A DNA stretch of 64,000 bases from Bombilactobacillus bombi (GTDB lineage: Bacteria; Bacillota; Bacilli; Lactobacillales; Lactobacillaceae), in NCBI RefSeq assembly GCF_003522965.1, contig NZ_CP031513.1:806001-870000 (forward strand), given 5' to 3'. Position numbers and translations under genes: made by a program. Shown piece after piece: positions 27,054 to 38,450 of this stretch. The notes under the pieces were generated by a model. It was not told the origin of the DNA, did no database searches, and was given only the letters and a program-made list of their open reading frames with translations. Positions within the stretch are counted from its first letter, which is position 1. Each line of letters opens with the position of its first letter.

Positions 27054-27418
27054 TGGAGATGAGGAGAATCGAACTCCTGTCCATACATACTGCCACACCA
27101 GCATCTACATCCATAGTCATACTATTTATAGTTCACCGTTAAGAACGCTGTATGACTGAGCTAACCTTAACGGCTAGCCTGGAAGTCTCTTTCTAGTTGC
27201 TCAGGTGGTGCAACTAGACGTAGCTCAATTTTTTAAGACCCAATTTAACCCTTGAGCGAAGCTAAACGGATCACGCTAAAAACTGTTTTTAAGCAGCTAA
27301 AGCGTAAGAATTATTATTATTTTTTGCAGTTATAATTTAACTGTAACGTTTTTACGTAGACGTAACCTACGAGATGCAACCAGTGCTCAACTACATATGT
27401 CGAATCCATAACATCCCC
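27054..27418 (-). ncRNA. ssrA: tmRNA (transfer-messenger RNA)
   Basis: Rescues ribosomes stalled on broken mRNA together with SmpB. The mature 5' end GGGGATG pairs with CATCTCC at the 3' end to make the alanine-type acceptor stem; CCA is not encoded. The TTCGATTC T-loop is near the 3' end. The resume frame, on the minus strand in the 27290s-27320s, reads AKNNNNSYALAA then TAA, the tag form seen in lactobacilli. The length is about 365 nt. The partner smpB is at 48370-48843. Confidence 0.97.
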
Positions 27419-36910: not shown

Positions 36911-36939
36911 TTTATCTCGTAATATCAATGTGATATTAT
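36911..36939 (+). promoter_or_regulatory. Promoter of the RHH-OB/SPFH operon with palindromic operator
   Basis: TTTATC (36911-36916), 17-base spacer, TATTAT (36934-36939). A perfect palindrome TAATATCA-ATG-TGATATTA at 36920-36938 covers the spacer and -10 box. A small DNA-binding protein is the first gene, so autoregulation through this site is a natural reading. Confidence 0.6.
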
Positions 36940-36959
36940 AAGACAAAGGAGGTAATGCT

Positions 36960-37295
36960 GTGACATCTATCATGACAACAATTCGTTTTCCTAATGAAAT
37001 TTATCAGCAATTAAAACAAGTAGCACAATCTCAACATACCAGTATTAATCAAATGGTAGTCCACAGTGTCCAACAAGCTTTAAACGGCGCTAATACACCT
37101 TCGATTGAAAATCAATTGGTAATCAACCAAATAGTTCCTCCAGAGCAAATCCTGAGTGACAGCGGACTAGTTAAGGTCAATGGAATTTATTATCGTTATC
37201 TCACTGAAAATAACGATTCTATTATTGCAGATACGGCCTATGTTGTCATTGCTGCCACAGGCAATATTCTCACTATAAGAGCAATTAAGAAATGA
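36960..37295 (+). CDS. Ribbon-helix-helix protein fused to an NfeD-like OB domain
   Basis: A 111-residue soluble protein. Residues 5-45 (TTIRFPNEIYQQLKQVAQSQ onwards) fit an Arc/CopG ribbon-helix-helix DNA-binding fold: a beta strand, then two helices with the NQMV turn. Residues about 66-111 (SGLVKVNGIYYRY, then AYVVIAATGNILTIRAI) resemble the C-terminal OB domain of NfeD proteins, with the G-x-V-x-V-x-G start and G-x-x-L end. NfeD genes normally neighbour stomatins, and a stomatin-like gene follows 13 bases later. The GTG start has a full AAAGGAGG site. The domain combination is unusual; the OB assignment is inference. Confidence 0.65.
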   Translation: MTSIMTTIRFPNEIYQQLKQVAQSQHTSINQMVVHSVQQALNGANTPSIENQLVINQIVPPEQILSDSGLVKVNGIYYRYLTENNDSIIADTAYVVIAATGNILTIRAIKK

Positions 37296-37308
37296 GGTAA
37301 ATTATATT

Positions 37309-38160
37309 ATGCCCTTTGGAATTAAAGTAGTATCCCAAAATTGTCAAGGTTTGGTAGAATCTTTTGGCAAATATAAACATAGTGTTGAATCTGGTTTGCA
37401 TTTTTATATTCCATTAGTTCAACATATACGTATAGTAAGTCTGGCAATGCAGCCGATAGAATTACCCCATTATTCCATAATTACTAAAGACAACGCAGAA
37501 GTATCAACTTCAATTACCTTGAATTATCATGTAACTGATGCAGTTAAATATGAATACAATAATACCGATTCCGTAGAATCAATGGCACAATTAGTCCGGG
37601 GCCACTTACGCGATATCATCGGTCGTATGGAACTTAATGATGCTTTAGGTTCTACTGCCAAAATTAATGCTGATTTATCTATTGCTATCGGAGATTTAAC
37701 TAATACTTATGGTATTAATGTAGATCGTATCAATATTGACGAATTACTTCCTTCTGAAGAAATTCAACGGGCTATGGATAAACAATTAACAGCAGATCGC
37801 CAACGCATTGCTACTATTGCGCAAGCTGAAGGAGAAGCAGAATCTATTCGCCTGACCAACGAAGCCAAAAACAACGCTTTAATGGCTACGGCCAAAGCCC
37901 AAGCTCAAGCTACTCGTACTCGTGCTGATGCTGAACGTTATCGAATTGATACTGTGCAAGCTGGTTTGACTCATGCAGATGATAAATATTTTAAAAATCA
38001 ATCTATCAATGCCTATAGTAAGTTGGCAGAATCAGCTGCTAATGTTGTTGTGGTCCCTAATGATGACAGCAGCAATTACGGTCAAACAGCGTTAATAGCC
38101 CAAGCACTAAAGCAAGATAATAATTTTACTGATGATTATCAATCATCGGAGCCCAAATAA
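37309..38160 (+). CDS. SPFH/band 7 (stomatin-like) protein without a membrane segment
   Basis: A 283-residue stomatin/prohibitin-family protein. It has GLVESFGKYKHSVESGLHFYIPLV, then ITKDNAEVSTSITLNYHVTD, the RDIIGRMELND segment and the DELLPSEEIQRAMDKQLTA segment, all in the standard SPFH order. An alanine-, glutamine- and charge-rich helix suited to a coiled coil spans about residues 165-220. The usual N-terminal hydrophobic anchor is absent: the protein begins directly with the SPFH fold. Its stop codon overlaps the next ATG (TAATG), and that gene encodes a membrane helix. Confidence 0.85.
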   Translation: MPFGIKVVSQNCQGLVESFGKYKHSVESGLHFYIPLVQHIRIVSLAMQPIELPHYSIITKDNAEVSTSITLNYHVTDAVKYEYNNTDSVESMAQLVRGHLRDIIGRMELNDALGSTAKINADLSIAIGDLTNTYGINVDRINIDELLPSEEIQRAMDKQLTADRQRIATIAQAEGEAESIRLTNEAKNNALMATAKAQAQATRTRADAERYRIDTVQAGLTHADDKYFKNQSINAYSKLAESAANVVVVPNDDSSNYGQTALIAQALKQDNNFTDDYQSSEPK

Positions 38161-38450
38161 TGTTAGCCGGTGGATGGATGGAATTAATCGTAGTTATATT
38201 AGTAATATTTTTCTTATTATCGAAATTAGTTAATTGGGCTTACTCGCATAAAAATAAGAATTTACCGAAAGCACAAAAACATCCCGGAGTATTAACTAAT
38301 GTGAAACATTATCGACCGTCACATTTTGTTCAACAAGCACAAACAGATACGCAAGATAAAGCTGTTTCATCTGAGTCTTCACTACTAAATAAAAACATTA
38401 AGCAGCATCTCAAAAAGAAGTCACAGCACCATCATGATAAAACCAAATAA
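38160..38450 (+). CDS. Small single-pass membrane protein of the SPFH operon
   Basis: A 96-residue protein with one hydrophobic helix at about residues 7-28 (MELIVVILVIFFLLSKLV) and a basic, His/Lys-rich cytoplasmic tail (ending KKKSQHHHDK). The family is not recognised. Its ATG shares a base with the SPFH stop, so the two are probably made in fixed ratio. It may supply the membrane anchor that the SPFH and OB proteins lack. Confidence 0.65.
   Translation: MLAGGWMELIVVILVIFFLLSKLVNWAYSHKNKNLPKAQKHPGVLTNVKHYRPSHFVQQAQTDTQDKAVSSESSLLNKNIKQHLKKKSQHHHDKTK

Follow-up and report, generated by a model that had tools for sequence, protein, structure and literature searches.

We analyzed a two-gene unit in a 64,000-nucleotide stretch of Bombilactobacillus bombi DNA (contig NZ_CP031513.1, positions 806,001 to 870,000; referred to here as the window). 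The first gene encodes a 111-residue protein, RHH-OB, which joins an N-terminal ribbon-helix-helix (RHH) domain to a C-terminal OB domain of the type found in NfeD proteins, and the second encodes a protein of the SPFH (stomatin/QmcA-like) type. RHH-OB is an NfeD relative of lactic acid bacteria in which the membrane part has been exchanged for a DNA-binding part. The two genes stay together throughout the Lactobacillaceae, a repeated operator lies at the promoter of the pair and is associated with an arginine of the RHH strand, and nearly all SPFH proteins paired with RHH-OB are without a hydrophobic anchor. Autoregulation by RHH-OB is well supported by these sequence comparisons. Our overall explanation, which we consider probable, is that RHH-OB would be an autorepressor that descends from NfeD and binds, through its OB domain, to an SPFH assembly without an anchor, with titration of the repressor providing feedback.

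The domain composition of RHH-OB was determined from profile searches and from an AlphaFold2 model computed with the sequences of the window protein and of 62 relatives. The model has a mean predicted local distance difference test score (pLDDT) of 83.3 and a predicted template modeling score of 0.51, and consists of the two RHH helices, a low-confidence linker at residues 44–47, one further short helix, and a small beta barrel. Pfam Arc matched residues 8–42 above its cut-off (E 1.3e-5), and the N-terminal half of the model aligned to PutA, NikR, Arc, and CopG with Z of approximately 6.0–6.5 (VIA-align). RHH families of Pfam were matched by most of 63 members examined (HicB 61/63, Arc 55/63, FitA-like RHH 44/63). 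The arginine at residue 9 (R9) presumably corresponds to Arg13 of Arc, which touches DNA.

For the C-terminal half, the top three solved structures found by Foldseek were 3wwv (E 2.1e-3; PH1510-C, 'stomatin operon partner'), chain AA of 8z5g (E 2.9e-3; the QmcA-YbbJ complex), and 2exd (E 0.013; C-terminal domain of an NfeD homologue), with 2k5h and 3cp0 ranking after them. Alignment of residues 46–111 by VIA-align gave 3wwv (Z 8.0), 3cp0 (Z 7.4), and 8z5g_AA (Z 7.1), then 2exd, 2k5h, and 2k14. According to their titles, the best matches are NfeD proteins, a stomatin operon partner, or a regulator of a membrane protease; the exception is 2k5h, which we take to be an NfeD protein. The Pfam NfeD model matched 10 of the 63 members at E<=0.1 (best E 0.002), its strongest score in a relative being found in genome G032 (E 1.9e-4, 22.7 bits); an OB-only relative gave 0.001. 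In an alignment to the family's membrane NfeD proteins, glycines and the strand pattern recur in RHH-OB; the N-terminal membrane helices of NfeD are absent, and the RHH domain stands in their place. Ordinary membrane NfeD is present in some relatives (L049–L054, L056). Taking fold, modest sequence support, and gene linkage together, the assignment of the predicted C-terminal domain as an NfeD-type OB is in practice established.

At E<=0.001 the RHH-OB profile matched 199 of 397 Lactobacillaceae genomes and 32 of 40 genera, a count that includes a tail of weak or partial matches; SPFH was present in 359 of the 397. In samples drawn from the order (198 genomes) and from the phylum (249), genomes outside the family matched in the RHH part only, no match running past model positions 67 and 56 of 113, respectively, with matches at E<=1e-6 considered for the phylum sample. 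Among the first 17 loci, the window's own included, 16 were intact and all 16 had SPFH directly downstream; the remaining one is the broken locus L018 described below. A scan of the genomes of 84,980 species yielded 84 relatives, of which 80 were kept (Levilactobacillus 21, Leuconostoc 13, Ligilactobacillus 9, Pediococcus 7, Lentilactobacillus 6, Furfurilactobacillus 5, and others of the Lactobacillaceae); SPFH came next in 79 of the 79 scan loci with a whole RHH-OB frame, locus L070 being cut by a contig end. For loci fetched with an RHH-OB query, an SPFH frame adjoins in 126/126 (47 + 79; gap −20 to 463 nt), a count that contains repeats of one place. Over all collected loci, some of the later ones chosen around SPFH, the figure is 147/148, or 105/106 distinct, with a median gap of 11 nt; the sole miss, L200, arises from an SPFH reading frame that is too long and runs into its neighbor. 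No conserved wider neighborhood was seen in the 79 loci, neighbor families being almost all confined to one genus. An earlier note on this DNA had proposed an Arc/CopG-type RHH domain followed by an OB domain, and had called for a survey of the linkage to SPFH in the Lactobacillaceae; the Pfam and fold matches to RHH proteins, the best fit of residues 46–111 to NfeD OB domains and not to a non-OB fold, and the 126 loci bear out these proposals.

Several individual loci were unusual. At L018 (genome G003, a different species of the genus to which the window belongs) remnants of both genes are left, broken into short frames. Ligilactobacillus salivarius carries its copy on megaplasmids (19 records), one record annotating the pair as 'hypothetical protein' and 'SPFH domain-containing protein'; the megaplasmid copy L243 (NZ_CP007647.1 75268-83600) has a Crp/Fnr regulator and a Dps-type stationary-phase protein encoded nearby. 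In group g18 (L015:1855-2193, L045:1882-2268, L048:1866-2204), RHH-OB is separated from SPFH by an additional gene, basic and of low complexity, and four Pediococcus SPFH proteins of 348–356 aa have a basic N-terminal extension (L103, L104, L107, L135). The idea that the extension is the g18 gene fused to SPFH was dropped, homology not being supported.

The regions upstream of the RHH-OB genes have in common the motif TGATATCA-N3-TGATATCA, which in the window reads TAATATCAATGTGATATTA. An exact match to TRATATCANNNTGATATYA occurs once in the 1.84-Mb genome of the window, at this very site. When two or fewer mismatches were allowed, the same genome contained 13 operator-like sites compared to 11 for a reversed control pattern, so no wider regulon is visible there, and that candidate was rejected. 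Across the 397 Lactobacillaceae genomes the exact operator was found at 61 sites in 56 genomes, the reversed control being absent among the matches listed. Forty-seven of the 61 sites lie 4–57 nt upstream of an RHH-OB match; of the 14 elsewhere, three lie between convergent genes (L171–L173), some lie before membrane-protein genes, and the rest are unexplained. Of 107 distinct full-length RHH-OB genes, 86 have the operator layout in their upstream region with at most 3/16 mismatches, these 107 being kept from the 148 loci after removal of identical protein ends and of loci with <80 nt upstream. In 80 aligned sites the box positions are 74–100% one base and the flanks drift; the sites were picked for their likeness to the consensus, so these frequencies overstate conservation. 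A simple dyad score was weak in the AT-rich upstream DNA (at least 8/9 pairs in 35/109), the fixed-pattern test being the informative one.

Presence of the operator follows the RHH strand residue. Arginine is found at the R9 position in 92 of the 107 proteins and another residue in 15; the operator accompanies 86/92 of the Arg-bearing proteins compared to 0/15 of the Arg-less ones, a level that shuffles reach in 0.4%. The Fisher p for the association is 7e-14, ancestry being ignored. Within the window's own genus, locus L005 has Gln instead of Arg and the operator is gone; the Arg-bearing locus L048 has a changed box in the same layout, TGATAGCA-N3-TGCTATCA. Autorepressors of the Arc/CopG/HicB type have repeated palindromic boxes at their own promoter and a strand arginine, and a repeated operator tied in this way to an RHH strand residue was found here. 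Like them, RHH-OB combines the RHH fold and the strand Arg with palindromic boxes at its own promoter that are spaced by roughly a turn of the helix; it differs from them in its C-terminal NfeD-type OB and in having an SPFH gene as neighbor. RHH-OB very probably binds DNA at its own promoter, presumably directly and as a dimer.

The promoter itself is predicted to lie within the operator. The extended −10 pattern TGnTATnAT is found inside 66 of the 86 operators, 61 of these also having at least 3/6 matches to the −35 at 16–18 nt, counts that were made without a shuffle control and in which a box followed by T fits TGnTATnAT by itself. A consensus promoter scan did not list the element of the window. 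The placement of the extended −10 inside 66/86 operators fits repression by occlusion.

Exact operators were also seen at other genes. Three genomes of group g22 (G208, G380, and G405) have one approximately 30 nt upstream of a gene for a putative membrane protein of about 187 aa (L182:1063-1654, L179:424-1033, L248:3-229). This gene occurs in 4 of 26 g22 genomes, with the operator before 3 of the 4; the G405 copy is in two pieces on two contigs, and that of G389 is partial. The gene is a possible second target of RHH-OB. In two g4 genomes, an exact operator lies between divergent frames, one of which encodes a putative membrane protein of 122 aa (L175:1029-1047, L176:1049-1067).

We also examined the SPFH partner. 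The window protein matches Pfam Band_7 (E 5.9e-32) and begins directly with the SPFH domain, hydropathy analysis revealing no N-terminal hydrophobic segment. Its model (pLDDT 74.8) has beta strands from residue 4 and a long helix at residues 150–221; the nearest solved structures are HflK/C and QmcA (29% identity), with vault proteins lower in the list. Lacking a hydrophobic anchor, this SPFH protein does not qualify as a membrane scaffold of the usual kind. By hydropathy of 139 SPFH proteins (145 rows less 6 from loci numbered 141–197 that were unrelated long branches or repeats), the N-terminal hydrophobic segment is missing in 101/104 partners of RHH-OB compared to 5/35 other SPFH proteins. 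The anchored exceptions among the partners are L017, L226, and L216. The five unanchored others are L070, cut by the contig end, L200, a divergent RHH-OB locus, and L217–L219, which have OB frames without RHH (that of L217 possibly truncated). The association of RHH-OB with anchor loss is strong by count; it involves approximately 5 changes on the tree and is not significant by independent pairs. The earlier note had held that RHH-OB would connect a membrane scaffold to transcription: the side of transcription is strengthened by an operator that lies at the promoter and covaries with the RHH arginine, and the membrane side needs correction, the SPFH protein being without the hydrophobic anchor of a usual membrane scaffold.

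The partner types found in relatives are plausible stages in the origin of this arrangement, presumably passed in the order given: membrane NfeD beside anchored SPFH; free OB-like proteins (64–86 aa, several recognized by eye only), likewise beside anchored SPFH; OB joined to other N-terminal parts; RHH-OB whose SPFH partner is anchored; and RHH-OB whose SPFH partner is unanchored. Tandem pairs of small OB-like proteins (69–108 aa, partly recognized by eye) were observed upstream of anchored SPFH in L201, L202, L232, L233, and L234, and OB-like partners of 125–132 aa with a different N-terminal part in L205, L208, L209, and L235.

We propose that an RHH dimer would sit on two, sometimes more, TGATATCA boxes spaced 11 bp apart over its own extended −10 and so block transcription. 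The OB domain, being the part by which NfeD holds SPFH, would dock on the SPFH product of the next gene, a step that homology and linkage make likely. Assembling SPFH would then take up RHH-OB, as QmcA takes up NfeD, and the promoter would report free RHH-OB and hence whether enough assembled SPFH is present; we put the chances of such titration feedback at about even. With the NfeD membrane helices and the SPFH anchor both lost, the RHH dimer may in addition serve as a clamp between neighboring subunits, and such a bridge would explain why RHH is kept in the 15 Arg-less proteins. These considerations suggest that the cell monitors production of the SPFH scaffold by way of the scaffold's own partner. 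It is rather doubtful, though conceivable, that the Lactobacillaceae have a cytosolic vault-like SPFH cage whose NfeD partner is a DNA-binding autorepressor and whose assembly switches the operon.

Other explanations assign the RHH domain a different role. It might be mainly a dimeriser that replaces the NfeD helices as a clamp in a cytosolic SPFH-OB cage, autoregulation being a side benefit dropped in some lineages. Such a role would agree with the retention of RHH beside SPFH in the 15/107 proteins that have neither strand Arg nor operator, and with the loss of the anchor in nearly all partners. We nevertheless think it unlikely, as the operator at 86/92 Arg-bearing loci makes DNA binding appear selected in most of the family, and the OB proteins without a recognized RHH beside unanchored SPFH (L217–L219, L217 perhaps truncated) imply that RHH may not be needed there. 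The DNA-binding partner and the unanchored SPFH could also be taken to mean that RHH-OB tethers an SPFH assembly to DNA and organizes the nucleoid or the locus and not transcription. The genome of the window, however, has its one exact operator at the RHH-OB promoter and near sites at the level of the control, which leaves no genome-wide set of anchor sites, and the extended −10 lies inside most operators; we consider a tether very improbable.

Resemblance to toxin-antitoxin pairs also has to be weighed, in which an autoregulating RHH antitoxin would restrain an SPFH effector. An RHH N-terminus, position as the first of two genes, and a palindromic operator at the promoter are typical of type II antitoxins, and all three are found here; antitoxin RHH families of Pfam, FitA-like RHH for example, match many members. 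The C-terminal part is nevertheless NfeD-OB-like, and the second gene encodes a conserved SPFH protein by Pfam and by fold (63–83% identity to the window's in 44 relatives) and belongs to no known toxin family. PADLOC gave no match for either protein, and RHH-less OB partners exist next to SPFH. There is hardly any likelihood that the pair is a toxin-antitoxin system.

Several results weigh against the NfeD-derived autorepressor that we favor. With respect to the OB domain, all Foldseek matches of the RHH-OB model are weaker than E 0.001, a VIA-align Z of 8 or less can, as the tool warns, reflect a mere common arrangement, and Pfam NfeD (PF01957) matches the window protein at residues 65–107 with 18.4 bits (E 0.0025), short of the curated cut-off of 29.1. 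Profile comparison by hhalign was modest, with P 9e-5 (probability 59) for the complete set of NfeD rows, P 7e-4 (26) when NfeD was restricted to family members, and P 0.0034 (9.5) when it was restricted to other families; controls with the RHH half gave P 0.11 and 0.027. With respect to the operator, 13 of the 15 Arg-less proteins came from later-fetched loci around weak RHH-OB or SPFH hits, and 6/92 Arg-bearing loci have no clear operator. A 105-row tree of the SPFH partners has 8 changes of the Arg and 12 of the operator; supported branches provide 4 independent pairs, with a mean of 3.4 in the expected direction and 0 in the opposite one, and the sign test is not significant. Retention of RHH without the operator in the 15/107 proteins that have no strand Arg means that RHH there does something else or binds another site. 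Finally, anchor loss was called by hydropathy alone, which does not cover amphipathic or lipid anchors.

The RHH-OB/SPFH pair can be compared to known SPFH systems. Both proteins of Escherichia coli QmcA-YbbJ (PDB 8z5g) are near structural matches of the pair, each window protein matching its counterpart. Reportedly, YbbJ has membrane helices, QmcA has a membrane anchor, and the two form a cage; we know of no DNA-binding domain in QmcA or YbbJ. As here, an SPFH protein and an OB-domain partner are encoded in one operon, according to the available part of PMC8656257, and the structure is mentioned in the available parts of PMC12624060 and PMC13100048. The NfeD family (PF01957; PH1510-C, YuaF) likewise has an OB-fold C-terminal domain and an adjoining SPFH gene; RHH-OB differs in having no membrane helices, in its N-terminal RHH, and in scoring below the Pfam cut-off. 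One classification of SPFH proteins, PMC2636767, is presumably Hinderhofer et al. 2009. It distinguishes 12 subfamilies, as far as the accessible text goes, with a membrane anchor in 10 of the 12, only SPFH8 and 9 being called soluble, and in that text no NfeD partner is reported for subfamilies 3, 4, and 6–12; 'lactobac', 'Oenococcus', and 'Leuconostoc' are absent from its main text. Bacillus subtilis YdjI is, like the window SPFH, predicted to be without a membrane anchor of its own, and this soluble SPFH protein is recruited to the membrane by the membrane proteins YdjG/YdjH (accessible part of PMC8581546), whereas the conserved partner of the window SPFH is a DNA-binding OB protein. No description of an RHH-NfeD fusion or of this operon was found in the literature searched, most subscription papers being outside its reach, and the pair appears to be a new variant of the known SPFH-NfeD module.

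Features of the locus in the window. Coordinates are window positions.
Feature	Position	Strand	Remarks
Operator TAATATCA-ATG-TGATATTA	36920-36938		Two 8-bp near-palindromic boxes, 11 bp apart
Extended −10-like element TGATATTAT, predicted promoter	36931-36939	+	From sequence; inside operator
RHH-OB gene	36960-37295	+	111 aa; open reading frame list; GTG start, strong ribosome site AAAGGAGG upstream
RHH (Arc-like) domain	36960-37097	+	Approximately residues 1–46; Pfam Arc and fold matches; R9 is the covarying strand residue
Predicted NfeD-type OB domain	37101-37292	+	Approximately residues 48–111; Foldseek and VIA-align matches; Pfam NfeD below cut-off
SPFH (stomatin/QmcA-like) gene	37309-38160	+	283 aa; starts 13 nt after RHH-OB gene
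Small membrane protein gene	38160-38450	+	96 aa; open reading frame list, hydropathy

The three genes lie on the + strand where the earlier note had placed them, with the same spacing between the first two; its grouping of all three as one operon does not extend to the conserved unit. The SPFH stop and the start of the third gene overlap by one base (TAATG), and the third protein has a single hydrophobic stretch, near its N terminus (Kyte-Doolittle 2.59 over 19 residues). Among the collected loci, a homologue of this protein turned up only in L003, which comes from a different species of the genus (E 1.6e-11), with a weak one in L132 (E 6e-4); L004 and L005 gave none. The third gene is local and stands outside the conserved unit.

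The genome of the window contains a single SPFH match. A search of that genome with an NfeD model gave no match at E <= 1; as even the RHH-OB gene escaped the search, the result argues against the presence of an ordinary NfeD and nothing more. A phage origin and an anti-phage system were considered and set aside: the locus gave no match in a phage collection, and PADLOC, which matched neither of the first two proteins, gave one weak match for the third (E 0.017). An NCBIfam scan gave below-cut-off matches only. Elsewhere in the window, a tmRNA lies at 27054-27418, with the tag peptide AKNNNNSYALAA.

The signals that SPFH assemblies respond to, and the control of their abundance, are long-standing questions. 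If the proposed mechanism is true, the promoter of the pair directly reads the assembly state of an SPFH protein, and we have met no description of such a thing. Many food bacteria have a genetically simple, two-gene, and probably soluble version of the module, with a defined operator as read-out, so that SPFH assembly state could be followed by an ordinary promoter reporter and the Arg-less relatives could serve as natural negative controls. SPFH partners in the Lactobacillaceae are modular, ranging from membrane NfeD through free OB-like proteins and OB joined to other N-terminal parts to RHH-OB, and the mechanism would account for a 'hypothetical protein' gene that annotation places beside an 'SPFH domain-containing protein'.
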